In this document: one piece after another, positions 42,819 through 60,596 of the stretch
Layout of the letters: the number at the start of each line of letters is the position of its first letter
Position numbering within the stretch: position 1 is the stretch's first letter
Assembly (NCBI RefSeq): GCF_000585375.1
Contig: NZ_KK073874.1
Span: forward strand, 2,542,001 to 2,606,000
Length of the DNA: 64,000 bases
DNA from: Cryptosporangium arvum DSM 44712
GTDB lineage: Bacteria; Actinomycetota; Actinomycetes; Mycobacteriales; Cryptosporangiaceae
Direction of reading: 5' to 3'
Position numbers and translations under genes: made by a program
The notes under the pieces: generated by a model
What the model saw: only the letters and a program-made list of their open reading frames with translations
Database searches by the model: none
Told to the model about the DNA's origin: nothing

Positions 42819-42973
42819 CCGTCCGGGCGTGATCAAGGTCGCACCGGGCCGATCGGCGGTCGCCAACCGTGTCAGACTGGCGCGTAACGGTGGGATTTCG
42901 GCGACATCGGTGGCGATCTCCCGTCGGACGACGTAAGACAGAGTCAGAGCAACAGACCACAACAACGCAGTAC

Positions 42974-43103
42974 GCGCGCTCCGGGGTCGGTGAAATTCCG
43001 AACCGGCGGTTACAGTCCGCGACCCGCAAGCCCTTCGGGGCGAGCGGTTGACCCGGTGGAACTCCGGGACCGACGGTTAAAGTCCGGATGGGAGGAAGCG
43101 CGC
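42974..43103 (+). promoter_or_regulatory. FMN riboswitch (RFN element)
   Basis: The conserved core is fully visible: GGTGAAATTCCGAACCGGCG, GTTACAGTCCGCGACCC, TTGACCCGGTGGAACTCCGGG, ACCGACGGTTAAAGTCCGG, ATGGGAGGAAG. Closing stem P1 is GCGCGCT (42974-42980) with AGCGCGC (43097-43103). It should repress ribE-ribBA-ribH when FMN is abundant, by translation or early termination; the roughly 100-base expression platform to ribE is GC-rich and I could not settle the mechanism. Confidence 0.95.
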
Positions 43104-43204
43104 GGGCTGGCCGGCGTGCCCGTCCGCGGGTGACGCCGTCGCGCCCGTGCACGCCCATGTCCGCGCTCCGGAGCCTGCTCGAGGCGAGGAGGCGCACGGC
43201 GCAC

Positions 43205-45932: not shown

Positions 45933-46787
45933 ATGCTGCGCATCGCCGTCCCCAACAAGGGATCGCTCTCCGAGCGGTCCACCCAGATGCTCGTCGAGGC
46001 CGGCTACAGCCAGCGTCGCGACCCCAAGGAACTGGTACTCACCGACACCGAGAACGAGGTCGAGTTCTTCTACCTGCGCCCCCGCGACATCGCGGTGTAC
46101 GTGGGCTCGGGCGACCTCGACCTCGGCGTCACCGGCCGTGACCTGCTGCTCGACTCGGGCGCCGACGCCGTCGAGATGCTCGCGCTCGGGTTCGGCCGGT
46201 CCACGTTCCGGTTCGCGGCCCGCCCCGGGACGGTCGAGTCGGTCACCGACCTGGCCGGTCGCCGGATCGCGACGTCCTACCCCGGCCTGGTGCGCGCCCA
46301 CCTGGCCGAGCACGGCATCACCGCGGAGGTCATCCGTCTGGACGGTGCGGTCGAGACCGCGATCCGCCTGGGCGTCGCCGACGTCATCGCCGACGTGGTC
46401 GAGACCGGAGCGACGCTCCGCCAGCAGGGGCTGGAGATCGTCGCCGAGCCGATCCTGCGGTCCGAGGCCGTGGTGATCCGCGGCAAGGGCCGGGCCGAGA
46501 CCGGCGCCGACCACCGCATCGACCAGCTCACCCGCCGCCTCAACGGCGTCCTGGTCGCCCGCCGGTACGTCATGCTCGCGTACGACGTCGAGCTGGCCCG
46601 GCTGGACGACGCGGTGTCGCTCACGCCGGGCATCGAGGGCCCGACGATCTCGCCGCTGCACAAGGACGGGTGGGTGGCCGTCCAAGCGATGGTGCCGCGC
46701 GACGAGACCAATCGGATCATGGACACGCTCTACGACCTCGGTGCGCGGGCCATCATCGTCACGTCGATCCACGCCTGCCGGCTGTGA
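45933..46787 (+). CDS. hisG: ATP phosphoribosyltransferase, long form
   Basis: 284 residues from ATG 45933, with GGAGGAA shortly upstream. LRIAVPNKGSLSE, VYVGSGDLDLGVTGRDLL and the phosphate loop DGAVETAIRLGVAD identify the catalytic domain. The extra C-terminal ACT-like domain (about 210-284) gives histidine feedback inhibition and marks the long form that does not need HisZ. The stop overlaps the next gene. Confidence 0.96.
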   Translation: MLRIAVPNKGSLSERSTQMLVEAGYSQRRDPKELVLTDTENEVEFFYLRPRDIAVYVGSGDLDLGVTGRDLLLDSGADAVEMLALGFGRSTFRFAARPGTVESVTDLAGRRIATSYPGLVRAHLAEHGITAEVIRLDGAVETAIRLGVADVIADVVETGATLRQQGLEIVAEPILRSEAVVIRGKGRAETGADHRIDQLTRRLNGVLVARRYVMLAYDVELARLDDAVSLTPGIEGPTISPLHKDGWVAVQAMVPRDETNRIMDTLYDLGARAIIVTSIHACRL

Positions 46788-47275
46788 CCGTGACCAGTCC
46801 GGAGGCCGACGTCGTCCGGTCGCGGCCGCACCGGCTGACGATCGTGTGCTGGATCCTCGCGATCGCGGTGATCGTGATCTTCAGCGTCGTCGCCGTGCTG
46901 CTGGGGCGGCCGACGACGACGGTGGACCCGGAGGTCGGGCCCCCGTTCGGCCTCGGCGACCAGATCGGAATGGTCTTCCTCGGCGTGCTGCTGGCCGGGG
47001 GAGTGCTCTCGCTGACCCGCCCCCGGATCGTCGCGGACGCCGAGCAGGTCACCGTGCGCAACGTCGTCGGGGGCGTCACCGTGCCGTGGACGCTCGTGCG
47101 GGGGGTGCGGTTCGACCGCCACTCCCCGTGGGCGGCACTGGAGCTCCTCAACGACGAACTCGTCTCGGTGCTCGCGGTTCAGGCCGCCGACAAACACCGC
47201 GCGGTCGACGCGGTGCGCGGCCTGCGCCGGCTGCACGCCGCGGCCTGGGAGGGCAAGGAGCCCCCGCCGGCCTGA
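46784..47275 (+). CDS. PH-like domain membrane protein
   Basis: 163 residues from GTG 46784, overlapping hisG. Two transmembrane helices (IVCWILAIAVIVIFSVVAVLL and QIGMVFLGVLLAGGVLSL) are followed by a compact beta domain (ADAEQVTVRNVVGGVTVPWTLVRGVRF) and a C-terminal helix. This is the bacterial PH-domain membrane protein seen after hisG in many actinobacteria. The function is unknown. Confidence 0.82.
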   Translation: MTVTSPEADVVRSRPHRLTIVCWILAIAVIVIFSVVAVLLGRPTTTVDPEVGPPFGLGDQIGMVFLGVLLAGGVLSLTRPRIVADAEQVTVRNVVGGVTVPWTLVRGVRFDRHSPWAALELLNDELVSVLAVQAADKHRAVDAVRGLRRLHAAAWEGKEPPPA

Positions 47276-47287
47276 CATGCCGCGACC

Positions 47288-47320
47288 AACGCCGCCCGGC
47301 TTCCTGGCCCGAGCGGCGTT
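47288..47320. terminator. Bidirectional terminator between the PH-like gene and the 51-residue protein gene
   Basis: AACGCCGC (47288-47295) pairs with GCGGCGTT (47313-47320), 12 bases after the PH-like gene stop and 24 bases before the stop of the reverse-strand small gene. Confidence 0.6.
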
Positions 47321-47344
47321 GACGTGTGCGAAGGATGTACTGGG

Positions 47345-47500
47345 CTACACCACGTTGGTGACGAATGCGCTCATGCCGCTAGCAATGTTCACCAAGCCGT
47401 CACCGAGTGATCGGACGACGCCGGCGGCATCCGCGGGCTGAGTGACGACGAAGAACACCAGCAGGGCAATCGCTCCCCATTTGAGGACCTTCTTCAACAT
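47345..47500 (-). CDS. 51-residue membrane or exported small protein
   Basis: From ATG at 47500, preceded on its strand by a strong ribosome site (GAGGAGG). The protein starts MLKKVLKWGAIALLVFFVV, a basic N-terminus and a hydrophobic helix, and continues TQPADAAGVVRSLGDGLVNI to a short hydrophobic C-terminus (SAFVTNVV). TQPADAA could be a signal peptidase site. Similar tiny proteins occur in other actinobacteria, from memory, without known function. It sits at the edge of the secretion-like locus, on the opposite strand. Confidence 0.7.
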   Translation of the reverse strand: MLKKVLKWGAIALLVFFVVTQPADAAGVVRSLGDGLVNIASGMSAFVTNVV

Positions 47501-47710
47501 GCCACGCCTCCTCGTTGCGGGGGTTGGCGCCTACGTGCACGCTTGCCGCAGAGTCACAGCCCATATACCAACAGTTAGAATCTAACACGCAGTTGTGACG
47601 CAGAGACTCTCGAGCTTCATTGTGTCGGATGACGAAGCGCGGCGTGTAGTCGCCCCTCGATTCACTCATGCTCACGTTTGGGGCGGATTACACACGGGGC
47701 CGGTCGACGT
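47501..47710 (-). promoter_or_regulatory. Promoter region of the 51-residue gene with a 13-bp palindrome
   Basis: This 210-bp gap is AT-richer than average. GTTAGA (47574-47579) and TCTAAC (47581-47586) form a near-perfect palindrome around one base. A TATATGG (47560-47567, reverse strand) could be a -10 element. Both are tentative. Confidence 0.35.
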
Positions 47711-48745
47711 CTAGTTGACACTGTTCTCATCAGTGAGAGGCGTGTCCGGGTCGTCGGGCAGGACCGTGAGTTCGGCCGCGCCGGCCCGGGTGAGCTCACC
47801 GACGGGCGCCTCCGGTCCGTCCGGGTCGATCAGGGCGAACGACGGCAGTCCTAACAGGGTGCAGGAGCCGCCCACCATGCCGACCGCGAGGAACCAGTCG
47901 TCGGATTCGTCGTGGTACATCCAGCCGGCGTCCAGGTCTCCCCATCGGGGATCGCCGCTGGTCATCTCGGCCGCCTCCACTGTGGGTGCCGGGTCGCCGG
48001 CGGTCCCGGTCGGGGTGCTGAAGTCGGTGGGGTAGCCGACGCGGGGATCGTCCGAGGTCGGAGCGGTGGTCTCGGGCGGGGTGCTGGCGTTCTCGGGTGC
48101 CCGGGGTGCCGGGTCGGGTGCTGGGTCGTGCTGGGCCGGAATGTGGGGTGCGGCGTGGTCGGGTCCGGGCGCCGTCCGGTCGGGCGCCGGGGGTTCGGGC
48201 GCGGCGATGGCCGGTGGCGGGGCGTCCGGTACAGGGGTTCGCGGCGGAACCGGGACCAGGGGCGTGGCGTACCCGAGGGCCGTGGACTCGGCCGGCGGCC
48301 GGGGCCGGGGCAGGGCCGCCGGTCGGGCGCGCTCCTCGGTCGCGGGCGCGGCGGCCGTCAGCGCCGCCCGGCGCGGTGGCGGTGAGATCGGACGATGCAC
48401 TTCGTCCGGCACCTTCAGCAGCCGCCGCTCCTCGACGCGGTCCGCGACCCGCGCGAATCCGGCCCCCACCAGGGCGAACAGGATCACGCCCGCGACGATC
48501 GCCGCCCACACCGCGGTACCGCCCCGCTCCGGAACGAGCCGCCAGCACAGCACCGCACCGGACACACTGGTGAGCAGGAACCCCAGCAGGGCCGAGAGCG
48601 CGGCCGGGAACTGAGTGATCGAGCCGCGTTGTGGACGGTCGGCACGCACCGCGGCGCGCGCGTGGGCGAGGATCACCGAGCCGCCACCGGCGAGCAATAA
48701 CCCCAAGCCGAGCGCGACGGCTGCGACCAGAGTCGTCCTGTCCAC
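47711..48745 (-). CDS. Three-helix membrane protein with Pro-rich tail and C-terminal domain
   Basis: 344 residues from GTG 48745, chosen because GGAGGA lies just upstream; the longer frame upstream has no family-like features. Three transmembrane helices occupy about 1-115 (LVAAVALGLGLLLAGGG, ALSALLGFLLTSVSGAV, AAIVAGVILFALVGAGF). A Pro/Ala-rich cytoplasmic stretch of about 130 residues follows, then an acidic C-terminal region with Trp/Tyr (DAGWMYHDESDDWFLAVGMVGGSC). I do not recognise the family. It is divergent from the T4SS-like operon and could be part of it or a regulator. Confidence 0.75.
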   Translation of the reverse strand: MDRTTLVAAVALGLGLLLAGGGSVILAHARAAVRADRPQRGSITQFPAALSALLGFLLTSVSGAVLCWRLVPERGGTAVWAAIVAGVILFALVGAGFARVADRVEERRLLKVPDEVHRPISPPPRRAALTAAAPATEERARPAALPRPRPPAESTALGYATPLVPVPPRTPVPDAPPPAIAAPEPPAPDRTAPGPDHAAPHIPAQHDPAPDPAPRAPENASTPPETTAPTSDDPRVGYPTDFSTPTGTAGDPAPTVEAAEMTSGDPRWGDLDAGWMYHDESDDWFLAVGMVGGSCTLLGLPSFALIDPDGPEAPVGELTRAGAAELTVLPDDPDTPLTDENSVN

Positions 48746-49077
48746 CGGTTTCCTCCGCGCATCCTGCGCATTCCACGCCGCCGACGGTCGCCGGGCCACG
48801 TGTGAAACAGGGTAACGGGTCGCACGCCGGACACCGGTGACTGATGGTGGCGATGATCGTCCGTACCGACGAGCAGCGCAGGGCCGGTCGGGGTGATTCA
48901 CCGGGCTCAACAGGTGAACGGTGTTATTACCAACTCTCCGGACGTAGCGGTAGCGTGTCTTAGCGTCACCAGAGAGGTGGTGGTACGTCGGCATGCCGAT
49001 CGACGGATGCGGGAACCCAGTAGTGTCCGTGGCCGTGTAAGGGCCGAGGAGTCGGCGTACCAATGCGGGAGGTACAA
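48746..49077. promoter_or_regulatory. Divergent promoter region of the T4SS-like operon
   Basis: The 332-bp gap between the reverse-strand membrane protein and the first secretion-like gene has no credible gene. TAGCGT (48950-48955 area) fits TANNNT as a -10 for the operon, but the -35 is unclear. Confidence 0.3.
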
Positions 49078-49374
49078 ATGCTGACCCACGTGATCCAGGC
49101 GACCGCAGGGATTCCTGACGAGATCCTTGCCGCGGCTGACCCGGGCGGCACCACGCTGAACACCGACGGCATCGTCGGCTTCATCGTGTCCAAGATCGTG
49201 CCGATCCTGCTGGCAGTCGTGGGCGTCATCATCCTGAGCCGGTCGGGCAAGGGCCAGTGGTCGGCGGCGCTGACCACGGGCGGCATCGCCCTGCTCGGCA
49301 TCGTCTTCATCGCCGGCGCCGGGCTGCTCTTCGCGTTCGGGCAGAGCTTCGCCGAGCTCGTTCTCGGGGGCTGA
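49078..49374 (+). CDS. Small pilin-like (VirB2/TrbC-like) membrane protein
   Basis: 98 residues from ATG 49078. I prefer it to the ATG at 49063 because GGGAGG (49067-49072) lies at the right distance before 49078. After a polar N-terminus there are two hydrophobic helices (IVGFIVSKIVPILLAVVGVIIL and ALTTGGIALLGIVFIAGAGLLFAF) separated by a basic loop (SRSGKGQW). This is the two-helix pattern of VirB2-type major pilins and of the equivalents in Gram-positive conjugation systems. There is no sequence motif to prove it; the neighbours are the main argument. Confidence 0.7.
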   Translation: MLTHVIQATAGIPDEILAAADPGGTTLNTDGIVGFIVSKIVPILLAVVGVIILSRSGKGQWSAALTTGGIALLGIVFIAGAGLLFAFGQSFAELVLGG

Positions 49375-49379
49375 CCCGG

Positions 49380-49733
49380 ATGCGGCTACGCCCGGACGAC
49401 GACATCTACCGCGCGAAACTGCTCTTCCTGGGTCCGAAGGGCTTCACGCTGCCGGTACACCTGCCCTATGTGGCGTATCCACTGTTCGCGGTGGTACTCG
49501 CCGTCATCATCTTCATCCGGTACCTGTTGACCCAGGAAGTCGACTACTTCCCCGCGATCGAGATCGCCCTGTCGATCGTCCTGACCTCAGTGATCCTGCG
49601 CCAGGTCAGTCCTGACCGGCCGGTCCGCGCAGTGCTGCGCACCGCCGCGACCGACTGGCGCCGGGACCGCACCGCCGGCGAACGCGGCGGCCGGGCCCGG
49701 TCGAGGATCGTCGTTCGGGAGACCATTCGATGA
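49380..49733 (+). CDS. VirB3/PrgI-like small membrane protein
   Basis: 117 residues from ATG 49380, five bases after the previous stop. Polar N-terminus (RLRPDDDIYRAKLLFLGPKG), then two helices (YVAYPLFAVVLAVIIFIRYLL and AIEIALSIVLTSVILRQV), and a basic C-terminal tail (RTAATDWRRDRTAGERGGRARSR). Size and position directly before the VirB4-like ATPase match VirB3/PrgI/TcpE-type partners. The stop overlaps the ATPase gene by four bases (ATGA). Confidence 0.68.
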   Translation: MRLRPDDDIYRAKLLFLGPKGFTLPVHLPYVAYPLFAVVLAVIIFIRYLLTQEVDYFPAIEIALSIVLTSVILRQVSPDRPVRAVLRTAATDWRRDRTAGERGGRARSRIVVRETIR

Positions 49734-52700
49734 GCGGACGTCACGCCCGGGGAGACGCCGACGCGGCGGCCGCCCGGGGCGCCCAGAGCAGCGCCGAGGA
49801 GTCGGCCGAGAAGGCCGCGGAAAACGGCGCCGAGGAGCGGGAGAGCGTGTCGGCGGGAGCAGGTCGGGGGAGAGCGCGCCGCTCCGGTTTCCCGGTGTTC
49901 CGACCGGCCGGTGCGAGGCAGCGGTCAGGTTCGTCTTCGGACGTGTCTTCTTCGGAGGGGGCGTCTTCGGAGGGGGCGTCCGCGGGGTCGTCCTCGGCTT
50001 CGTCGTCCGGGGAGGCGTCTTCCGAGGGTCCTTCTTCTTCGGGGTCTGCTTCGTCCGAGCGTGCTTCGTCCGAGCCTGCTTCGCTCGGTTCCTCGGTGGA
50101 GCCGTCGGCCGGGGAGCCGGATTCGGCTGGGGAGCCCGGTGCGGGTAAGGAAGCGGCGGACTCGGCCGAGGGGTCGGGTGGCCCGGTCGCGCCGGGTGGC
50201 CGGAAGGGTGGCCCCACCGCGGCTGATCCGTACGACGCCGATCTGGAGTCGGCGATCTCCGACGCACTGCAGCTGGTGCCGCCGGCCACCTCGGCTCCGG
50301 AGCCGTCGAGCACGCAGGAACCGGTACCGCCCCAGCAGGGACGCCCGATCCCGTCCAGCGGCCCGCCCGGAACGGGTGCGCCCTACGCCGGGCCCGTGCA
50401 ACCGTGGCCGGGGGAGCCGGTCGCGCCGGCGGAAAGCTCCGCGCAGGCCGTCGCCCCGGCGGCTCCGCCGTCCCCGTCAGGCGCCCACTCCGCGCCCGAG
50501 GTGCCCGGTCAGTATCCCGAGGCACCCTCCGGGGGTCCGTCCTCCTCCGGCGCGGCACCGCCGCGGTTCAGTGGTCGGCCGCCGGGCTCGCATCCGGGAA
50601 CCCCCCAGTCCGGCCCGCCCCACCCCACAGTGTCCCAACCGGGCGTATTCGAAGCGGGCGCGTCCCATCCAGGCGTCTTCCGCGCGGGCGGACCTCAATC
50701 GGGGGCGACTCAACCGGGTGGGCCTCAGGAGGGTGTTTCCTCTCCGGGTGGGCCCCAGCAGGGCGTTTCCCAGCAGGGCGTTTCCCAGCAGGGCGTTTCC
50801 CAGCAGGGCGTTTCCCAGCAGGGCGTATCCCAGCAGGGCGTATCCCAGCAGGGCGCGCCTCGTCAGGGCGGGCCCGCACCGGGTGGGGTGCAGTCGGGCG
50901 CGTTCCAGCACGGTGGACCTCAGCAGGGTGGTCTCGCCGACCCTGCCGATCCCGAGGCGTCGCAGTACGGGGCGCAACGCTCGGCCGGGGCGCCAACCGG
51001 ACCCGGTGAGCCCGGACCGGCAGAGGGCAGCGGGCCGGTCGGGCCGCAGTCGGCACCCCCGAGCCGTCCAGGACCCTTCCCCCCGCGGATCATGCCGCCC
51101 GGCGCCCGGCCGAACTACGGCCAGCCTCCGGTGGACCCCCGTGCGGTCAGCGGGCCGTCCGGTGCGCACCGGATCATCAACCAGCCGTCCGGCGCCTACC
51201 CCGTGCTCCCACCGAACCAGGTACCGCCGGGTGTCGGTCAGCCCTCGGGTGCACACCGGATCGTGCCGCCCAACGGCCCACCCCCCGGCCCCGTTCCACC
51301 CGGTGGCGCCCCTTCGCACGGCACTATCCCCCCGGGCCACATGGGCCCCGGCAGTGTGGCGCCCGGCAATGTGCCTCCGGGCAACGTGCCGCCCGGCAAT
51401 GTGGGCTCGGGATATGTGCCGCCCGGTAGCGGGGGTCCCGGTCACATGGGTCCTGGTAACTCGAGCTCCGGCAACGTGGGCCCCGGCAACGTAGGCCCTG
51501 GCGGCGTGGGCCCTGGCGGCGTGGGGCCCGGCAACGTTCCGCCTGGTGTCGGGCAGCATTCCGGGGCGCATCGTGTGCTGCCGCCGAACGGAATGCCTCC
51601 GGGCAACGTCCCGCCGAGTGTCGCCCAGCAGTCCGGTGCTCATCCGGTTCTCCCGCAGTCCGGCCCGACACAGGGCCACCCCGGCCGATCGGCTGGCCCC
51701 GGTGGCCCCGGTGGCCCCGGCCAGCGTCCGGGCTCCCGTGGACCGGCGCCGCAAGGTGCTGGACCGGGATCGGGCCCTCAGGGTGCCGGACACGGCTCGG
51801 GCCCGGACTACCCAGGGCAGGGCTCCCAGGGCCAGCCGCCCCAAGGCCACGCTCCTCACGGCCAGCCACCCCACGGCCAGTCGACCTATGGTCAGGCGCC
51901 CCACGGCGCGGGACCTCACAACGCGGCCACCCAGGCGCAGGCATTCCATGGGACCGGCCCGCAGGGCAACCCAGCGGAGGGGAACGCGCCGCACGGCTCG
52001 CGGACCGGTGGGCCACAAGGACACGCAACTCGTGAACAGCAGGGCCCCCCGGGGTCCGGGCCGCAGTCGCAAGGCGGCCCGCAGTCGCAGGGCCAGGAGC
52101 CACAGGGTCCTGGTTCGCTACCGCAGGGTTCCGGCCCGCAGTCGCAGGGCGGCCCGCAGTCGCAGGGTGGGCCGCAGTCGCAAGGTCCCGGGCCGCGGTC
52201 GCGAGGACCTGAGGCTTCGGGACCCCACGGACCTCAGGGACCTCAAGGACCCCAGGGATCTCAAGGACGGCCGGTCGCCGGTCAGCGCGGCCCGGGCGGT
52301 GGGCGTCCCGGGGGCCAGATCGCACCGAACTCCGCCCCGCCCCGCCCCGGCGTACCGCGCGGTGGCGGTTACCCCACCCCGGGCGGCCCCTCCACCGGTC
52401 CGGTGTCCGGCCCGGCCGCACGTCCCCTGTCCGGACCGGCCGACCACCCCGTCTCCGGCCCCACCGCACACCCGGTGTCGGGCCCGGTCGGTCGCCCCGC
52501 ACCCGGCTCGGGTGAACCCCCCGTGTCCGGCCCCGGCGGACGCCCCGTCTCCGGCCCCGTGGGCCGCCCGGTCTCCGGCCCGGTCAGCCGCCCGGTCTCC
52601 GGCCCCACCGCACACCCCGTGTCGGGCCCGGTCGGCCACCCCATATCCGGGCCCGTCGGACGCCCGGTCTCCGGGCCGGTCGGCGCGGACGGACTGGAGC

Positions 52701-55570
52701 ACGGCCCAGGCCCCGCGCCCTGGCCGGTACAGCACCCGATGAACGCCGCGCCGCGGAACGCCGCGCCGCCCTCGACCTTGCCCACGCACCCCGCGTCGGT
52801 CGCGGTCGCGCCGCCCGCGCGGATGCCGAGCCGCCCGGTGACCGGCATCCCCACCTCGGCGCCGCCGCAGTCGAGCCCGCCGGCCCCGCTCTACGTGCCC
52901 GCGCCCGAGCGTTACCCCGCGATCGATCCCCCCGAGTCCGACGACGCGAAAACGGCGCGCGACGAACGTCGGCAGAAGAAACGCAAGCCACGACGGGTGC
53001 GGAGCCGCCCGCCGAAGGAGCAGAAGGACCGGCAGGCGGTTCATGAACTCGAGCTGCGTGAGATCGCCGGGCACCTGACCTTCACCCGCAACGACGTGAC
53101 GGCCTGGTACCACCTCCCGGACATCCAGTGGGCGTTCCGGGCCGACAAGGAGCGGACCTCGATCCTGCTCGGCATCGCGGCGCAGTACGCGGCGCTGGGC
53201 GGCTACCGGCTGCACATGCGGCGCACCAACCGGCCGTACCCGGCCGTGGGCTGGGCGCGCCGGATGGCCGCGCTGACGCCGCACCCGGTCCCGGACGTCC
53301 GGGGCGCGCCGAGCTGGTCGGACCATCTCGAGGCGGGTCAGCGCCGGCTGCACGCCACCAGCCTCGCCGAGGGCGAGGTGTACCTCGGTGTCGTGTTCCA
53401 GCGCCGGACCATGCGTGAGCAAATGGTCGAGACCCTCAACGCGCTGCGCAAGCGCGGCTCCGGCAACGCGGAGCGGGCGCGTCTCGAACAGCTCGTCGGA
53501 CGGTTCGACGAGGTGCTCGGCGCGTTCGGCATGCAGGCCCGGCCGGCGACGTCCAAGCAGGTGGAGTGGCTGATCCACCGGTCGGTGGCGCTGTGCATGC
53601 CCCCGCCGCCCGCGCTCTCGCCGGCCGAGGCCGGTGGCTGGGAGACCGGCGACCTGCTCGCGTTCACCGAGCACACGATGCGTTACCGGTCGCCGTACGG
53701 AAGCACGGTGAAGCTGCTCTCGCGGATCGGCGACGAGCACGTCGAGCGACACGTCGCGGTGCTGACGTTCGGTCGTATGGAGGAGCTGTCGATCCCCGAG
53801 CGGCACGAGCCGTGGCTGCACTTCCACGAGCAGTTGCCGTGGCCGATGGAGCTCTCCAGCCGCGTCGACGTGCTCGGCCAGGGCGACGCCCTGCGCTCGC
53901 TGGAGCACAAGTTGCTGACGATCCGGTCGCAGCAGCGCGACTACCACGAGCACGAGATGGACGCTCCGCCCGAGCTCGAGCGGCTCGCGCAGCGCGCACT
54001 GGACATCTCCGACGAGATGTCGACGGGTCTCGACCTGGACGCGGCCCGGGTGCACGGCTGGCACCGGATCGCGGTGTCGGGACGCACCGAGGAGGAGTGC
54101 CTCAAGCGGGTCCGCGCGCTGACCGACCACTACCGCTCGATGCGCATCACCCTGAACCACCCGCGTGACCAGCTGCGGCTGCTCGACGAGTTCATCCCGG
54201 GCCAGCCGGTGGCCAACACCGGTTACCTGCGTCGCATGCCCGCCAAGTACTTCGCCGCCTCGATCCCGCAGGCCGCGGCAGCGATCGGTGACCGGCGCGG
54301 ACCGATCATCGGCGAGACGTGCGGAACGTCGCACCGTCCGGTCATGTGGGATCCGCACTACGCCACCGAGGTGCGTGAGCGGTCGGGTCTGACGGTGTTC
54401 GTCGCCGAGCCCGGCGGTGGTAAGTCGACGCTGATGGGCGGTATCGCCTACCTGGCGGCCCGACGCGGTGTGCAGTGCACGATCCTCGACCCGTCCGGCC
54501 CGCTGGCCCGGCTGGCGACGATGCCGGAGCTGGCGCCGTACTCCAAGGTGTACAACCTGACCCGGGGCGAGCCGGGCACGCTGGCGCCGTACGGCTTGAT
54601 CCCGACCCCCCGGCGCGAGCACTTCGCGTCGGACGAGTCGGGCACGGCGGAGTGGAACTCGGCCGTCGCCGCGGCCCGCGCGGAGCGGAAGGCGCTGGCC
54701 ACCGACATCTGCATGATGCTGCTGCCGCCGCAGATCCAGCGGGAGCGTTCGTCGCCCATCCTGCTGCAGCGGGCGGCACGTCAGGTGGAGCCGGAGGAGT
54801 CCGCGACCCTCGACGATCTGGTCGCCACCGTCGCCACGTTCGGCGAGGAGGGCGCCGAGCTGGCCGAGACGCTCGGCGACGTCCGGGACATGCCGCTCTC
54901 GCGGTTGTTCTTCGGGCGGTCAACGGCCCAATACGGTCAGGACGAGGCGGTGCTGACGATCATCACGATGGCCGGCCTCGCATTGCCCGACCTCTCGATC
55001 GACCGTGAGTTCTGGCAGCTCGAGGAACGCATGGCGCTGCCGATGCTGCACCTGGCCACGGCGTTCACCACCCGGCGGGCCTACGGCCGGGCGATGAGCG
55101 ACCGGAAACTCGTGGCGCTCGACGAGACGCACTTCCTGGCCGGCTGGGGCTCGGGCCGGGCCCTCTTCACCCGCCTGGCCCGCGACTCCCGTAAGTGGAA
55201 CATCGCTGCCCTGGCCGCGTCGCAGAACCCCGTGGACATTTTGGGGCTGGACGTCCAAAATCTAGTGTCGACGGTGTTCGTGGGGCGTATCGCCGAGGAT
55301 CCCGAGATCGCGGCTCAGGCCCTTCGGATGCTCGGTGTACAGCGTGGAATCGGCTACGAGAACACGCTGGCGCAGTTGTCGGTTGCGGATACTCAGAACG
55401 ACCAACGGCTCGGCTACCGGGAATTCGTCATGCGTGACGTTGACGGCCGGGTCCAGAAATTCCGGGCGGACCTGGCTTACGTGGCCGGGCTGCTCGAACA
55501 CCTTGACACCACCGCCGATCCGCTCGGCGATGTGGGCCGGAACTCCGGCCAGGAGGGTGATGCCCGGTGA
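49730..55570 (+). CDS. VirB4-like ATPase with a giant low-complexity N-terminal domain
   Basis: 1,946 residues in one uninterrupted frame. Residues 1-1,080 are low complexity: Ser/Glu/Gly-rich start, then Pro/Gly/Gln repeats, including QQGVS repeated six times (about 343), PPGN/GPGN collagen-like blocks, QSQGGP blocks and GPVSGP repeats near 900-985. A basic stretch RRQKKRKPRRVRSRPPKEQK marks the boundary. The C-terminal 865 residues form a complete VirB4/TraC-type ATPase: N-terminal TraC-like domain, Walker A EPGGGKSTLMGG (about 1,562) and Walker B KLVALDETHFL, then a C-terminal helical region. It should power a membrane secretion or conjugation apparatus. The overlapping start and stop show operon coupling. 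Confidence 0.85.
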   Translation: MSGRHARGDADAAAARGAQSSAEESAEKAAENGAEERESVSAGAGRGRARRSGFPVFRPAGARQRSGSSSDVSSSEGASSEGASAGSSSASSSGEASSEGPSSSGSASSERASSEPASLGSSVEPSAGEPDSAGEPGAGKEAADSAEGSGGPVAPGGRKGGPTAADPYDADLESAISDALQLVPPATSAPEPSSTQEPVPPQQGRPIPSSGPPGTGAPYAGPVQPWPGEPVAPAESSAQAVAPAAPPSPSGAHSAPEVPGQYPEAPSGGPSSSGAAPPRFSGRPPGSHPGTPQSGPPHPTVSQPGVFEAGASHPGVFRAGGPQSGATQPGGPQEGVSSPGGPQQGVSQQGVSQQGVSQQGVSQQGVSQQGVSQQGAPRQGGPAPGGVQSGAFQHGGPQQGGLADPADPEASQYGAQRSAGAPTGPGEPGPAEGSGPVGPQSAPPSRPGPFPPRIMPPGARPNYGQPPVDPRAVSGPSGAHRIINQPSGAYPVLPPNQVPPGVGQPSGAHRIVPPNGPPPGPVPPGGAPSHGTIPPGHMGPGSVAPGNVPPGNVPPGNVGSGYVPPGSGGPGHMGPGNSSSGNVGPGNVGPGGVGPGGVGPGNVPPGVGQHSGAHRVLPPNGMPPGNVPPSVAQQSGAHPVLPQSGPTQGHPGRSAGPGGPGGPGQRPGSRGPAPQGAGPGSGPQGAGHGSGPDYPGQGSQGQPPQGHAPHGQPPHGQSTYGQAPHGAGPHNAATQAQAFHGTGPQGNPAEGNAPHGSRTGGPQGHATREQQGPPGSGPQSQGGPQSQGQEPQGPGSLPQGSGPQSQGGPQSQGGPQSQGPGPRSRGPEASGPHGPQGPQGPQGSQGRPVAGQRGPGGGRPGGQIAPNSAPPRPGVPRGGGYPTPGGPSTGPVSGPAARPLSGPADHPVSGPTAHPVSGPVGRPAPGSGEPPVSGPGGRPVSGPVGRPVSGPVSRPVSGPTAHPVSGPVGHPISGPVGRPVSGPVGADGLEHGPGPAPWPVQHPMNAAPRNAAPPSTLPTHPASVAVAPPARMPSRPVTGIPTSAPPQSSPPAPLYVPAPERYPAIDPPESDDAKTARDERRQKKRKPRRVRSRPPKEQKDRQAVHELELREIAGHLTFTRNDVTAWYHLPDIQWAFRADKERTSILLGIAAQYAALGGYRLHMRRTNRPYPAVGWARRMAALTPHPVPDVRGAPSWSDHLEAGQRRLHATSLAEGEVYLGVVFQRRTMREQMVETLNALRKRGSGNAERARLEQLVGRFDEVLGAFGMQARPATSKQVEWLIHRSVALCMPPPPALSPAEAGGWETGDLLAFTEHTMRYRSPYGSTVKLLSRIGDEHVERHVAVLTFGRMEELSIPERHEPWLHFHEQLPWPMELSSRVDVLGQGDALRSLEHKLLTIRSQQRDYHEHEMDAPPELERLAQRALDISDEMSTGLDLDAARVHGWHRIAVSGRTEEECLKRVRALTDHYRSMRITLNHPRDQLRLLDEFIPGQPVANTGYLRRMPAKYFAASIPQAAAAIGDRRGPIIGETCGTSHRPVMWDPHYATEVRERSGLTVFVAEPGGGKSTLMGGIAYLAARRGVQCTILDPSGPLARLATMPELAPYSKVYNLTRGEPGTLAPYGLIPTPRREHFASDESGTAEWNSAVAAARAERKALATDICMMLLPPQIQRERSSPILLQRAARQVEPEESATLDDLVATVATFGEEGAELAETLGDVRDMPLSRLFFGRSTAQYGQDEAVLTIITMAGLALPDLSIDREFWQLEERMALPMLHLATAFTTRRAYGRAMSDRKLVALDETHFLAGWGSGRALFTRLARDSRKWNIAALAASQNPVDILGLDVQNLVSTVFVGRIAEDPEIAAQALRMLGVQRGIGYENTLAQLSVADTQNDQRLGYREFVMRDVDGRVQKFRADLAYVAGLLEHLDTTADPLGDVGRNSGQEGDAR
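50756..50860 (+). repeat. 15-bp tandem repeat within the ATPase N-terminal domain
   Basis: CAGCAGGGCGTTTCC occurs four times exactly (50756-50815), twice with one substitution (GTATCC, 50816-50845), then partially. It encodes QQGVS repeats. The near identity of the copies indicates recent slippage, so the number probably varies between strains. Confidence 0.92.
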
Positions 55571-57708
55571 CCCTACCTTCGGTGCCCAGGGGCGATGGTA
55601 GTCCCGAGGGAGTGGTGAGGCGTTCCGGCCCGAACCGGCGGGTGGTGCCGGCGGGCCGGTTGGTGGCGTGGGTCCTGACGGTGCTGGTGGTGGCAGTGGC
55701 GACGCTGTTCGCATCGCCGGGGGTCAGGCCGGCGCAGGCGGCATGCGGTCCGTCAGATCCAGCGGCGTGTCTGCCGAGCAGCAGCGTGGTCGACTGCCTA
55801 GACCCCCCAACCCCAGCCATGCCCGACACGGGCGTTTCCCGGTTTTTCTTGACGGCACCTGGAGACACGCCAGGTGATGGGCGATTGCATGCCACTTCGC
55901 GGTATGACGATTATGGCTATGCTGGCTTGCAATTTCACACGTACGACCTCGGGTGTGGCCCGGACGGTGCTGTGGCGCCCGATGCTCTCGTTAACAACTC
56001 AATCGCGAATATGATGCTTGGGGTTGCCACTTTTGTTGTCGGGCTCACCAACTCTGTAAGGGAGCATGCGTACGATCCGCAGGAGATGTGGGGTTGGACT
56101 GACGACCTAGTCGGCTCCGCAAGCGGTGCTCTATACGAACGGCTTTTTACGGCGCTCGGGGTTGTATCCGTCGTTATCGTCGGTGGCTGGCTGCTTTGGA
56201 GTGCACGGCGAGGTGATATGTCCAATGCGGCGACGACTGCTGGTTGGGCGGTTTTGGTTATGGTAGTAACCACCGCCATTGCTGCTTGGCCGGTGAGGGC
56301 AGCGTCGGTTGCTGACGGTGCTCTGACCGGATCGCTAGGTGCAGTCAATAGCGCCCTTCATCCGAATAAGGACGAAGTTTGTGGAACTACTCGGTGTGTG
56401 GACGATCGGACGCCTCAGCGACAAGCAAGCGGGGTAGTCTCGGAAGTTGTTCTTTATCGGCAATGGCTAAGTGGCGAGCTGGGTTCAGCAGATAGTCAGA
56501 CTGCTAAGAAGTACGGTGAGCGACTTTACGCGGCGTCCGCATTTACTTGGCAAGAGGCCGAAGAAGTCCGCCGGGATCCTACGCGGCGCGAAGAAATTGT
56601 TAAACGCAAAAACCAGGAATGGAAAGACACTGCGGCCGAGATTAAGAAATCGGACCAGGATGCGTACGAGTATTTGACTGGCAAGCAAGGTACTGATCGG
56701 ATGGGGGCCGCTTTTACTGCCCTGATTTCCGCGGCGGTCGCGGCGCCGTTCGACTTGATTTCATCAATTCTGATCATTATAGCGTTCCTCGTAATCCGAT
56801 TGGCGGTCGTTTTCCTACCTGCAATCGCGACGATCGGGATAATGCGCCCAGCATCCGGTCCGCTTCGAGGACTGTTCCGAACCGTTGTGGCCGCGATTAT
56901 CAATTGTGTGATCTTCGGGGTGGGTGCAAGCGTTTATCTCTTGGCGCTTGATTTGATAACCAGCACCGCCTCCCTGGCCGGCTGGCAACAGATCCTGCTG
57001 ATCTTCCTCACCGGCCTCGTCATGTGGTTACTGCTCCGTCCTTTCCGCCGCCTTACCAGCCTGGCCGGCGGCAATCCGTTCCACGATCTCGTCGGTGGGC
57101 TCGGTGCGGTTCGACGCCGGGCCTTCGGTGACGCTCGTACGGCCGGTATCGCCGCCGCGGGCGTCTTCATCGGCAACAAAGCCGCCGAAGACGACGACAA
57201 ACGCAGCGACGCCCGCCCGGAGTCCTGGAGCCGCGACCGTTCGTTCGTCCGGGTCGCCGACAGCCCGGCCGAGGCCGAGTCGGCCACCACCTTCACCCGC
57301 GCCAACGCCGGCGGCGGCCGCCTCTCCGACGAATCCCCGGTCGTCATGGCCGGCCGCAGCGCCCGCCCCGAGAACGGCACCACCGGCTCGTACGCCGGCG
57401 CCGGTTCGTACTCCGGCACCGGGCGGACGGACAGCGACGGCGATCAGATCACCCCCGCCGGCGCGCGTCCACCGATGCGTGTCCCCGCCGGCCCGGCGCG
57501 CCCCGAAAACGGGTCCGGCCTCGATTACCGCGATCCCTCGTACTCGGTGGCCACCCGCGGCGAGTCCGTCCCGGTCGAAGCCGAGGAGCGGTTCGTCGTC
57601 TACCGGCCTGACAGCGGTTACCGCACGGTGGAACCCGACATCCGTCCGGAGTCCCGCCCGACCCCGCGGCAGAGCGCCGACGCCACCGCGGGCAGTCGAC
57701 CTGAGTAA
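55567..57708 (+). CDS. VirB6/TrbL-like polytopic membrane protein, base composition mosaic
   Basis: 713 residues from GTG 55567, overlapping the ATPase stop. An N-terminal signal-like helix (LVAWVLTVLVVAVATLFA) ends at PAQAAC. About six to seven further helices follow (around 160-180, 195-215, 220-240, 390-440, 445-475, 480-500), then a long soluble Ser/Pro/Glu-rich C-terminal tail of about 200 residues. This is the layout of VirB6/TrbL-family channels in Gram-positive systems. Codons from roughly 55800 to 56950 are AT-rich, unlike both ends of the gene. It also contains a rare TTA codon at 57028-57030. Confidence 0.75.
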   Translation: MTLPSVPRGDGSPEGVVRRSGPNRRVVPAGRLVAWVLTVLVVAVATLFASPGVRPAQAACGPSDPAACLPSSSVVDCLDPPTPAMPDTGVSRFFLTAPGDTPGDGRLHATSRYDDYGYAGLQFHTYDLGCGPDGAVAPDALVNNSIANMMLGVATFVVGLTNSVREHAYDPQEMWGWTDDLVGSASGALYERLFTALGVVSVVIVGGWLLWSARRGDMSNAATTAGWAVLVMVVTTAIAAWPVRAASVADGALTGSLGAVNSALHPNKDEVCGTTRCVDDRTPQRQASGVVSEVVLYRQWLSGELGSADSQTAKKYGERLYAASAFTWQEAEEVRRDPTRREEIVKRKNQEWKDTAAEIKKSDQDAYEYLTGKQGTDRMGAAFTALISAAVAAPFDLISSILIIIAFLVIRLAVVFLPAIATIGIMRPASGPLRGLFRTVVAAIINCVIFGVGASVYLLALDLITSTASLAGWQQILLIFLTGLVMWLLLRPFRRLTSLAGGNPFHDLVGGLGAVRRRAFGDARTAGIAAAGVFIGNKAAEDDDKRSDARPESWSRDRSFVRVADSPAEAESATTFTRANAGGGRLSDESPVVMAGRSARPENGTTGSYAGAGSYSGTGRTDSDGDQITPAGARPPMRVPAGPARPENGSGLDYRDPSYSVATRGESVPVEAEERFVVYRPDSGYRTVEPDIRPESRPTPRQSADATAGSRPE

Positions 57709-57725
57709 GCGAGAGGAGTTCGTTC

Positions 57726-58250
57726 ATGGCGCGGCTGCCGGCGGGCATCTACCTACGCCGGCCGGGTTACCGGATTCTGTCCGCGCTCGTGCTGGGCGTC
57801 ATCGTGGCGGGCGTCGTCCTGCTGGCGCGGTTGTTCGGGTCGGTCACCGCGGACGGTACGGAGGCGGCCCCCGTGCCCGCGCCGTCGCGGACGGTCTCGT
57901 CCACCGAGGGCGACGACAGCGTCTACGCCGAGAAGAGCGCGTCGACGGCCCCCGCGGCCGGGGTCGGTGAGGCGTTCGTGCGTGCCTGGCTGCAGCCGAC
58001 CGACGGACGTTCGCAGGGCCAGTGGTACGCGGGCCTGGCCCGTTACGCCCTCCCCGACCTCGCGGCGCAGCTCAAGAACGCCGACCCGACGACGAATCCC
58101 GCCACCGCGGTCACCGGTGAGCCGACGACGACCGTCATCAGCGAGACCAGCGCCCAGGTCGTCGTGCCGACCGACGCCGGAAAAGCGTCGACGCTGTGCG
58201 TACTGACCGAGGACGGTTGGCGCGTCGCGACGATCGACCTGGGGAAGTGA
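57726..58250 (+). CDS. Bitopic membrane protein, VirB8/TcpC-position candidate
   Basis: 174 residues from ATG 57726, with GAGAGGAG upstream. Basic cytoplasmic N-terminus (ARLPAGIYLRRPGYR), one transmembrane helix (LSALVLGVIVAGVVLLARLF), a Thr/Ser/Ala linker and a compact extracytoplasmic domain (AGVGEAFVRAWLQPTDGRSQ to the end) that could adopt an NTF2-like fold as in VirB8/TcpC. The domain is too short for certainty. It is followed by the hydrolase after 3 bp, so it belongs to the same operon. Confidence 0.65.
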   Translation: MARLPAGIYLRRPGYRILSALVLGVIVAGVVLLARLFGSVTADGTEAAPVPAPSRTVSSTEGDDSVYAEKSASTAPAAGVGEAFVRAWLQPTDGRSQGQWYAGLARYALPDLAAQLKNADPTTNPATAVTGEPTTTVISETSAQVVVPTDAGKASTLCVLTEDGWRVATIDLGK

Positions 58251-58253
58251 CGC

Positions 58254-59414
58254 ATGGCTGTCGACCTGCGTCCGGACGCTGACGAGACCCCGCCGCCGGA
58301 GAAGTCGCGGCTACGCAAATTCGTGGTCATCGGTATTGCGCTCGCGGCCGTCAGCGCGCTGCTCTGCCTGGGTTTCACGCCGATGGTCTTCAACTCGGTC
58401 GTACAGAGCATGCGTGACTCGGCCGAGAACGCTCAGCAGGGCTGCGGATCGCTGGGCTTCAGCGTCGACGACAACGTGAAAATCGACGGGTTGGCCGCTG
58501 ACCAGTTGCAGAACGCGGCCACGGTCATCGGCGTCGGACAGAAAATGAAAGTGCCGCCGCGCGGGTGGGTGATCGCGTTGGCCACGGCACTGCAGGAAAG
58601 CCTTCTGCACAATTACACGGTCGCCACCGACCACGACTCGGTCGGCCTGTTCCAGCAGCGTCCTAGTAGCGGCTGGGGGAACGCGCCGGCGAATGCGAGC
58701 GACACCCGCACACCGGCTCAGCGGCTCACCGACCCGGCTTACTCGTCGGCGAAATTCTACGAGAAGCTCCTGCGGACGCCGAGCTGGAACTCTCGCCGGC
58801 TGGCCGACGTGGCCCAGGCCGTGCAGATCTCGGCCTTCCCGGAGGCCTATGCCCGCTGGGAGGGGTTCGCGACGCTGCTGGTCAACCGCATCACCAAGGG
58901 CGCCGCGAACGGTGTGGTCGCGAGCCAGGGCGATCCCATCCGCTGCGCCACGCCGGGCCAGGTGAGCGGCGCGGGCTGGACGGTGCCGGCGCTCGGTCAC
59001 GTCGGTAGCGGTTTCCGGACGGCGGACCGGCCCGGGCACGCCGGGGTGGACATCATCGTGCCGCGCTACACCGTGATCCACGCGGCCAGCGCGGGCATCG
59101 TCGTCACGTCGACGTGCAACGCCTCGACGGACAACTGCGACGTCGACGGCAGCCCGGCGGTCAAGGGGTGCGGCTGGTACGTGGAGATCGCGCACACGAC
59201 CGGACTCACCACCCGCTACTGCCACATGGTCGAACGGCCGGCGGTCGTCGTCGGCCAATCGGTGGAGGCGGGGCAGCCGCTGGGGAAGGTCGGCTCGTCG
59301 GGCAACTCGTCCGGGCCGCACCTGCACTTCGAGACCCGGGTGAACGGCGACGCGGTCAACCCGATCGCGTTCATGTCCGCCCGCGGCGCCCCGCTGGGCG
59401 AATCCCAGCGGTGA
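58254..59414 (+). CDS. Two-domain cell-wall hydrolase (transglycosylase-like plus M23 peptidase)
   Basis: 386 residues. N-terminal helix (FVVIGIALAAVSALLCLGF), then a transglycosylase-like domain (WVIALATALQESLLHNY with candidate catalytic Glu, and SVGLFQQRPSSGWG, the lytic transglycosylase-like active site). The C-terminal half is a LytM-type M23 endopeptidase with the zinc-site His-Asp in GHAGVDII and the conserved GPHLHFE. Such fused hydrolases (VirB1/TcpG-like) open the peptidoglycan for a conjugation or secretion channel. It is the last gene of the locus. Confidence 0.87.
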   Translation: MAVDLRPDADETPPPEKSRLRKFVVIGIALAAVSALLCLGFTPMVFNSVVQSMRDSAENAQQGCGSLGFSVDDNVKIDGLAADQLQNAATVIGVGQKMKVPPRGWVIALATALQESLLHNYTVATDHDSVGLFQQRPSSGWGNAPANASDTRTPAQRLTDPAYSSAKFYEKLLRTPSWNSRRLADVAQAVQISAFPEAYARWEGFATLLVNRITKGAANGVVASQGDPIRCATPGQVSGAGWTVPALGHVGSGFRTADRPGHAGVDIIVPRYTVIHAASAGIVVTSTCNASTDNCDVDGSPAVKGCGWYVEIAHTTGLTTRYCHMVERPAVVVGQSVEAGQPLGKVGSSGNSSGPHLHFETRVNGDAVNPIAFMSARGAPLGESQR

Positions 59415-59426
59415 GCCGCGAACGAA

Positions 59427-59792
59427 TCAGTAGACCGGGCCGGTCAGCTTCTCGCCCGGACCCTGCCCCGGCGGGTCAGGGATCACCGACGACTCCCGGA
59501 ACGCCCGCTGCAGGCTGGACAGGCCGTCGCGCAGCGGCGCGGCATGGGCGCCGAGGTACTCGACCGATGACATGATCAGGCCGGCGAGGGCGGTGATCAG
59601 GCGTCGGGCCTCGTCGAGGTCGCGGTGCGGGGACGAGTCCGGGTCGTCGGACGCGAGGCCCAGACGCTCGGCGGCGGCACTCATCAGCATGACGGCGGCT
59701 CGGCTGATCACCTCGACCGACGGGATCTCCGCGAGGTCACGGATGTCCGGTTCGAGGGAATGCGCATCGCTGGCTGGGTGTTCGGAACTCAT
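59427..59792 (-). CDS. DUF1844-family protein
   Basis: 121 residues from ATG at 59792 (MSSEHPASDAHS...). Contains the helical core IPSVEVISRAAVMLMSAAAERLGL and DLDEARRLITALAGLIMSSVEYLG, typical of DUF1844. It commonly lies beside infC in actinobacteria. Its function is unknown. It is convergent with the T4SS-like operon and ends 12 bp from the hydrolase gene. Confidence 0.85.
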   Translation of the reverse strand: MSSEHPASDAHSLEPDIRDLAEIPSVEVISRAAVMLMSAAAERLGLASDDPDSSPHRDLDEARRLITALAGLIMSSVEYLGAHAAPLRDGLSSLQRAFRESSVIPDPPGQGPGEKLTGPVY

Positions 59793-59935
59793 GCCTGGTA
59801 CCCTGGCAGAACGACCAGCCGTCCGCGCAGCGGGTGGCAGCCAAGAGGAGCCCCGCTCCCACCCTCGCCGCCGCAAGGTAGCAGGGTCCGGTCACAGTTT
59901 GACGTGGTGAAACACGCCAAAGGACCGGTCGAGTG

Positions 59936-59957
59936 GGCCCCAGCATGCGCTGGGGCC
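59936..59957 (+). promoter_or_regulatory. Leader hairpin upstream of infC
   Basis: GGCCCCAGC (59936-59944) pairs with GCTGGGGCC (59949-59957) around a 4-base loop, 60 bases before infC. Stable stems here usually act as an attenuator or leader element of the infC-rpmI-rplT operon. The trailing T-run is weak. Confidence 0.55.
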
Positions 59958-60020
59958 TTCACGTGTTGTGGGGCTTCGGGCAGGCAGGTCAATGACTAGA
60001 AGTACGTCCGAGGAGGTCCC

Positions 60021-60596
60021 ATCAGCGTAGAGCTGCGTGTGAACGACCAGATCCGCGCCCGCGAGGTGCGTCTCGTCGGTCCTGAAGGAGAGCAGGTCGG
60101 CATCGTTCCGGTTGCCGAGGCCCTGCGCCTCGCCCAGGACACCGACTTGGATTTGGTCGAGGTCGCGCCGACCGCGCGGCCGCCCGTCTGCAAGCTCATG
60201 GACTACGGAAAGTTCAAGTACGAGAGCGCGCAGAAAGCACGGGAGGCGCGGCGTAACCAGAGCCTCACCGTGATCAAGGAAATGAAGCTCCGGCCGAAGA
60301 TCGACCCGCACGACTACGAGACCAAAAAGGGTCACGTCGTGCGATTCCTCAAAGCCGGCGACAAGGTCAAGATCACGATCATGTTCCGTGGGCGTGAGCA
60401 GAGCCGCCCCGAGCTGGGTTTCCGGCTGTTGAAGCGGCTCGCGGACGAGGTGACCGAGCTCGGCTTCGTCGAGTCGGCTCCCCGCCAGGACGGCCGCAAC
60501 ATGATCATGGTGATGGCCCCCCACCGAGCTTTGAAGACCGTTGGCCAGCGTGGCTCCGGGGAAGACACGGAGGCGGACGCCCCAGCGGACGTCTGA
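60021..60596 (+). CDS. infC: Translation initiation factor IF-3, probable ATC start
   Basis: 191 residues if started at ATC 60021 ([16 protein letters not shown]). The Shine-Dalgarno AGGAGG (60011-60016) is only 4 bases before this ATC but 22 bases before the next GTG (60039), and IF-3 homologues extend this far. Non-AUG starts (AUU, AUC, AUA) are the hallmark of infC because IF-3 discriminates against them, which gives autoregulation. [14 protein letters not shown] and [23 protein letters not shown]-like segments identify the protein. Confidence 0.9.

Follow-up and report, generated by a model that had tools for sequence, protein, structure and literature searches.

A resident operon of the type IV secretion kind in Cryptosporangium arvum, with relatives in other actinomycete chromosomes and on linear plasmids

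Domesticated type IV secretion systems (T4SSs) of the MOBless kind, chromosomal VirB4-type systems with no adjoining relaxase, are an established idea (Guglielmini 2011, PMC3158045), and a lone virB4 has been remarked on in M. lupini (PMC4182475). In Streptomyces, the co-transcribed chromosomal cluster cmdABCDEF (SCO4126-4131) is related to the transfer genes of SLP2, and the authors of its description liken the ATPase CmdB to VirB4 (Xie 2009, PMC2782261). The cluster is reported there to be required for normal sporulation and chromosome segregation: its deletion delays sporulation and results in aberrant branches, 6-8% anucleate spores and more actinorhodin, and deletion of cmdA alone is given as having no apparent effect on sporulation. 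Insertions in cmdBCDEF likewise raise actinorhodin (PMC6585502). The T4SSs of Firmicutes, such as the Tcp system of pCW3 and that of pIP501, go by the group name MPF-FA (PMC12857230). Here we analyze a six-gene operon of Cryptosporangium arvum DSM 44712, located in a stretch of 64,000 nucleotides (positions 2,542,001-2,606,000 of contig NZ_KK073874.1, the single contig of this genome of 9,195,993 bases) that we refer to as the window. The operon very probably encodes a resident T4SS-type machine. Domesticated MOBless T4SSs, the cmd operon and the lone virB4 in M. lupini were thus already known; our literature search, mostly of papers readable without subscription, returned no account of the present operon as a family-wide core machine, nor of its link to linear-plasmid modules, the absence of a coupling ATPase or how it relates to cmd.

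The operon resembles the MPF-FA systems in having a VirB4 nearest to TcpF, a VirB8 fold nearest to TraM and a VirB6 of the CD3337/EF1877 type, but differs from them in that neither TcpA/VirD4 nor a relaxase is visible at the locus. It shares with the MOBless T4SSs its chromosomal position and the lack of a visible adjoining relaxase. The MOBless survey reports few T4SSs in actinobacteria (PMC3158045), whereas the present operon is near-universal in whole families and lacks a coupling protein as well.

Organization of the operon and its components

The operon consists of six genes, all on the + strand, spanning positions 49063-59414 (Table 1). As called, three junctions overlap and the other two have gaps of 17 and 3 bases, which bears out an earlier note, made from the sequence alone, of a co-directional, partly overlapping operon. 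That note started its span at 47345 and in this way included a minus-strand open reading frame (ORF, 47711-49063), which on sequence grounds lies outside the machine: it matches only the three sister species and not the related loci L114 and L115, and it evolves fast, with a ratio of nonsynonymous to synonymous substitution rates (dN/dS) of 0.35-0.50. The location between hisG (Pfam, 3.2e-46) and infC (IF3_N, 6.2e-34; IF3_C, 1.6e-33) was recognized correctly. On one flank we find ribH, hisE, hisG and a PH-domain gene, and on the other a DUF1844 gene (minus strand), infC, rplT, a SpoU methylase gene and pheS.

The VirB4-type ATPase is the best-supported component, as the earlier note had proposed. 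It matches AAA_10 (1.4e-15) and, as closest NCBIfam family, TcpF (4e-24); a sequence search of solved structures gave no match at 0.01. The P-loop [AG]x4GK[ST] is present in 121 of 128 homologues, and the other seven keep GGGKST with S in first place. An N-terminal extension adds about 1,089 repetitive residues rich in proline, glycine, serine and glutamine and diverges fast among the sister species (dN/dS 0.39-0.50).

The predicted VirB6-like protein (gene 4) matches the CD3337/EF1877 profile at 1.2e-6, under the cut-off, and the best match of its predicted structure is the VirB6 of R388, a moderate one. For gene 5, sequence profiles gave no VirB8 match, including in a sequence search of solved structures with the VirB8 profile. 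In the ranking of its predicted fold, however, 19 of the 21 top rows are T4SS proteins of VirB8 type (the exceptions being 3d9r and 3gzr), and TraM of pIP501 is the closest. Both fold claims are based on this kind of ranking and on a second aligner, Foldseek having returned no match at E<=0.001 for either the VirB8 or the VirB6 model. The last gene encodes a wall hydrolase with a Peptidase_M23 domain (7.5e-26), preceded by a part (residues 75-207) that matches muramidases at 4.1e-9 and 2.7e-8.

The two small membrane proteins are less clear. Among 21 homologues of gene 1, TrbC was matched in two and T4SS_pilin in one, all weakly (E 0.017-0.03), and 27 homologues of gene 2 gave a single weak TcpE match (0.008). 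Of the components listed in the earlier note, VirB4, VirB6, VirB8 and the VirB1-type hydrolase, the members expected of a T4SS of monoderm bacteria, thus appear to be present, judging from profiles and models, whereas the assignment of genes 1 and 2 as pilin and VirB3/PrgI is unproven and draws on weak, scattered matches. The operon is confirmed as such, and its build is that of a T4SS.

Table 1. Coordinates of the six genes and of the conserved stretch at the operon start (positions in the window)
Feature	Position	Strand	Remarks
Gene 1, small two-helix membrane protein, VirB2/pilin position	49063-49374	+	putative; homologues aligned
Gene 2, small membrane protein, VirB3/PrgI/TcpE position	49371-49733	+	putative; conserved start, ATG at 49380
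Gene 3, VirB4-type ATPase	49730-55570	+	conserved part 52997-55567; repetitive extension 49730-52996
Gene 4, VirB6-like polytopic protein	55567-57708	+	weak profile match, fold match
Gene 5, VirB8-like protein, membrane helix and NTF2-like domain	57726-58250	+	predicted fold ranking
Gene 6, VirB1-type wall hydrolase, muramidase-like part and M23 peptidase	58254-59414	+	profiles
Conserved stretch at operon start, possible promoter or leader, entering first bases of gene 1	48960-49079		sister-species identity

The conserved stretch at the operon start (about 120 bases) is 97-98% identical to the three sister species and shows no codon-position bias. It gave no match upstream of the operon in other families. 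An RNA leader was considered at this position and rejected: no Rfam family reaches the gathering score, the fold is not unusual (z -0.89), and one opposite-strand match looks like chance (E 0.79). The sole Rfam match at gathering score in the window is an FMN riboswitch (RF00050, 98 bits) at 42972-43105, upstream of riboflavin genes.

Conservation, chromosomal residence and mobile relatives

The operon is resident, at a lineage-specific chromosomal place and, as its substitution patterns indicate, under purifying selection. At E<=1e-10, the conserved VirB4 domain was detected in 95 of 249 genomes sampled from the order, in all five genomes of the window's family (the window's own included), in 142 of 150 genomes of family f15 (129 of 134 of high quality) and in 150 of 150 of family f14 (140 of 140 of high quality). 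We take f15 to be Micromonosporaceae, from named loci of like identity; the labels Pseudonocardiaceae for f14 and Streptomyces for f33/g156 are likewise our assignments. VirB4 mostly occurs once per genome, second matches being pieces of one gene or true second copies. Named loci at 60-64% VirB4 identity belong to Micromonospora, Salinispora, Actinoplanes, Dactylosporangium, Stackebrandtia and others. In the class as a whole, a match at 1e-6 is seen in 31 of 246 genomes, of which 21 belong to family f31 (31-33% identity). In genus g86 of f15, all three sampled genomes (G266, G295, G313; one a single contig) lack VirB4, a natural loss.

All six genes are found in order in 59 of 80 named loci, in 6/6 loci of the window's own group and in 19/19 f14 loci. 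In these counts the hydrolase is scored by a profile covering its muramidase part, and gene 1 only when in order, since its iterated profile also matches unrelated membrane segments in contigs that end short of gene 1. The 21 named loci with a gene missing comprise 20 under 16 kb and one (L094) of 17.6 kb. Against the three sister species, dN/dS is 0.066-0.070 for the VirB4 domain (0.13-0.14 for hisG, as a comparison), 0.07-0.12 for gene 1, 0.15-0.20 for gene 2, 0.17 for the hydrolase, 0.13-0.16 for VirB6 (with dS near saturation) and 0.28-0.41 for VirB8.

The hisG-infC setting, whose synteny the earlier note had proposed to follow across actinobacteria, is kept in most loci of the window's group, with ribH on the upstream side in 6/6, hisG present in 5/6 (not in L115) and infC downstream in 5/6 (the window, L111, L113, L114 and L115). 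In L112, transposase-like ORFs, recognized by eye, take the place of infC in the 3.8 kb past the hydrolase. Other families have the operon elsewhere. Among named loci with full flanks, mostly Micromonosporaceae, folP is upstream in 51/53, and folP upstream together with folE downstream in 40/53; f14 loci share a 177-aa gene (14/19), a 74-aa gene (13/19) and an RNB gene (10/19) as neighbours.

At the locus we see no coupling ATPase, no att repeat, no tRNA target and no variable location of the kind seen in conjugative elements. No tRNA was found in the 64-kb window, and no direct repeats flank the operon; the three direct-repeat families in 46700-60100 all lie inside the VirB4 extension. A plasmid-type FtsK or coupling protein (T4CP) was found neither in window positions 47000-60500, nor in L111-L115 (17.5-20 kb each), nor in 19 f14 stretches of 20 kb. 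The earlier note had read the operon as resident, with no coupling ATPase and no att-type ends in view, and on all these points our searches agree with it.

The closest mobile relatives of the operon are transfer modules of plasmids. A plasmid search returned 279 records, all below 60% VirB4 identity; 140 of them are weaker Enterococcus matches, the best ones are actinobacterial, and identity is 28.9-38.0% among the 60 matches listed. We compared the six best matches and pRHL3, a set that also includes pRVR2, pSM17C and four plasmids that are unnamed or called p1. All seven plasmids are linear, and in five of the regions compared ParA-type genes are annotated. The same six genes occur in the same order in 6/7 (gene 1 is below threshold in L147). 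The six-gene set is the transfer module of linear actinobacterial plasmids, which corrects the statement of the earlier note that no function was assigned to it. In six plasmids, unlike at the resident loci, where none is seen, an FtsK/SpoIIIE or T4CP gene is annotated at a distance of at most about 2 kb, and the seventh (L148) has a weak coupling-ATPase candidate (5e-9) about 9 kb away. In 6/7 plasmids (C40 or NlpC/P60 annotated; the seventh is M23-like), as in the f14 loci, the hydrolase keeps its muramidase part and NlpC/P60 replaces M23, a domain swap between lineages. In f15, a plasmid-like FtsK lies near each of two second copies, L187 and L188 (3e-12 and 3e-11).

An AICE-like element (for actinomycete integrative and conjugative element) in genome G079 (L126:4316-17327) carries the six-gene module together with an integrase (1.4e-23), RepSA (5.9e-141) and an FtsK match under the cut-off (1.9e-4). 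This contrasts with AICEs as they are described, which need a single FtsK-type protein (PMC3218068).

In a quick VirB4 tree of 61 rows, the window, L111-L113, L115, L032 (identical in contig to L114) and L031 (a contig of 4 kb on which the location is not visible) cluster together (99) and join Micromonosporaceae (100). All seven plasmids fall with the f14 rows, as do L116, L126, L185 and L186 (100). Plasmid end branches are long (0.30-2.39, against a median of 0.078 over all rows). A single clade of resident copies was rejected in the approximately unbiased (AU) test (p 0.0006), for a group chosen after seeing the tree and with a long-branch warning from the program. At least two captures by chromosomes would be the simplest reading of these sequences, and plasmid-type channels have probably been captured more than once; derivation of the plasmid modules from resident operons is possible.

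Coupling proteins elsewhere in the genome and the cmd comparison

FtsK-domain proteins are present in the window's genome away from the operon. A genome search gave no match to TraG-D_C or to the TrwC relaxase, other relaxase families not having been searched genome-wide. An unlinked VirD4-like protein, which the earlier note suggested looking for, exists, but the sole T4SS-DNA_transf match sits at about 3.30 Mb, in another cluster of T4SS-like genes. This cluster (L192:4982-12405, about 3.299-3.306 Mb) encodes the VirD4-like protein (TrwB_AAD_bind 1.6e-9, TraG-D_C just 0.0069), a VirB4 of its own (CD1110 family, 1.3e-76), a pilin of the T4SS type (1.4e-17) and a Replic_Relax protein (3.8e-37). 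An AICE at about 1.42 Mb (L193:2607-9510) has a tyrosine integrase, an FtsK-type transfer protein and RepSA.

About 1-3 kb downstream of the operon, many loci of Micromonosporaceae contain an FtsK-domain gene of a different kind. Such a neighbour (L076:17623-20202) was considered as the lost coupling protein and rejected: blastp at 1e-3 did not link it to the FtsKs of the plasmids, and the protein most closely related to it in the window's genome is encoded at 8.81 Mb, in a different gene neighbourhood. This relative (L143:9442-12465) is an FtsK/SpoIIIE-domain protein beside small WXG-like and DnaK-like genes, as judged by eye.

Like the present operon, cmdABCDEF is a resident six-gene T4SS-like operon of a mycelial actinomycete with a VirB4-type ATPase, a small membrane protein, a VirB8 candidate and a polytopic protein. 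It differs in order (small membrane protein, VirB8 candidate, polytopic protein, SCO6880-family VirB4 half, ATPase half, VirD4-like protein), in its split VirB4 (SCO6880 family, 8e-53, and a 475-aa ATPase, against one ORF here), in its VirD4-like member (TraG-D_C 6.6e-4, just under cut-off) and in having no wall hydrolase. The lysines of the cmd ATPase at positions 90 (P-loop) and 404 are at the positions mutated in the published work (PMC2782261). Profiles of the window's operon match the VirB8 candidate of cmd only, and weakly (6e-4 to 1e-2), so we regard cmd as another resident system, of a different build. As such it still has a published deletion phenotype (PMC2782261), a further correction to the statement that no function was assigned. 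A 30-base pattern found the cmd locus in 45 of 121 genomes of one genus, with 0 matches of the reversed control among those listed. At 1e-20, cmdB has matches in 72 of the 246 genomes of the class, and those listed include 21 f33 genomes with at least 91% identity; at this threshold it is not listed for the window's genome (6/17 candidates scored), for G015 and G028, or for any of the 21 f31 genomes, all of which have the window's VirB4 type.

Possible functions of the operon

Plasmid-style DNA export is unlikely because no coupling ATPase is seen at the locus and the mobile relatives have one or a candidate; a channel without a DNA-feeding motor has therefore probably been co-opted for a function of the cell's own. 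On balance, we favor a resident, chromosome-domesticated conjugation-type channel that most likely serves hyphal development. The developmental role, as opposed to effector export or DNA transfer, is the more tentative part and falls just short of evenly poised; it is suggested by the analogy with cmd, the small overlap of the two operon types and the mycelial habit of the named genera that carry the operon. In such a machine, VirB8, VirB6 and the two small proteins would form a channel or short pilus across membrane and wall. The hydrolase would open the peptidoglycan, and VirB4 would be the motor of a VirB3-B4-B6-B8 translocon, for assembly or substrate movement, as in T4SSs generally (PMC12857230). 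The operon may then serve aerial growth, septation or chromosome placement, and so take in these families the part that cmdABCDEF has in Streptomyces. A fuller version, in which several separate captures into mycelial core genomes (the window/Micromonosporaceae and f14 lineages, perhaps f31 and the cmd type) were followed by loss of the coupling ATPase and use as a developmental organelle of the hypha, e.g., a wall- or septum-spanning channel for aerial growth and pre-sporulation chromosome placement, is doubtful as a whole.

Several points weigh against the developmental role. Since cmd is no close homologue, its function is transferred by analogy, and the published role in sporulation and chromosome segregation is that of the Streptomyces cluster. 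Window-type and cmd-type operons hardly overlap among the genomes listed, a count in which three or six candidates were scored per genome, families are given as codes and misses are listed in part; in G700 (f33) both types occur, with the window type located on a contig of 8 kb. The operon is also carried by two small genomes of f11 (2.4 and 3.0 Mb), and eight of 150 f15 genomes have no VirB4, so it is dispensable there.

An unlikely but serious alternative is a machine that secretes or injects proteins, against competitors or for wall and signalling purposes, without a VirD4 receptor, like Ptl and the Brucella T4SS. VirD4-less protein exporters do exist (PMC12857230), and most MOBless T4SSs are regarded as protein exporters (PMC3158045), yet neither a substrate gene nor a neighbouring effector is conspicuous in the window, where no dedicated effector search was made, and the flanks are housekeeping genes that differ between families.

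Less probable still is a resident helper of DNA transfer, whose channel AICEs or plasmids would use while supplying an FtsK-type coupling ATPase in trans. The gene set is that of plasmid transfer modules, the genome has both the AICE with its FtsK-type protein and the VirD4-like protein, and the AICE-like element of G079 carries the module itself. However, transfer of an SLP2-derived plasmid is reported as unaltered in the Streptomyces cmd deletion (PMC2782261), and the single FtsK-type protein is all that AICEs are described as needing. A DNA uptake machine is very unlikely: ComB of H. pylori (VirB2-4 and VirB6-10) likewise works without VirD4 (PMC12857230), but no competence gene lies near our operon, in a search of the neighbourhood that did not extend to comEC. 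A recently inserted or decaying conjugative element, suggested by the transfer-module content and the transposase-like ORFs in L112, is scarcely credible in view of family-wide presence, fixed places, purifying selection and the absence of a tRNA or flanking direct repeats at the locus.

A domesticated channel with a proposed role in hyphal development would be of wider interest, as a T4SS-type machine that forms a core operon of whole families with its DNA-feeding part gone is unusual in Gram-positive bacteria. Together, the operon and cmd suggest that conjugation machinery has been recruited repeatedly for mycelial life. The cmd phenotype of 2009 would thereby gain a concrete machine model, in antibiotic-producing genera and for an operon whose mutation is reported to alter antibiotic output as well (PMC2782261; PMC6585502).

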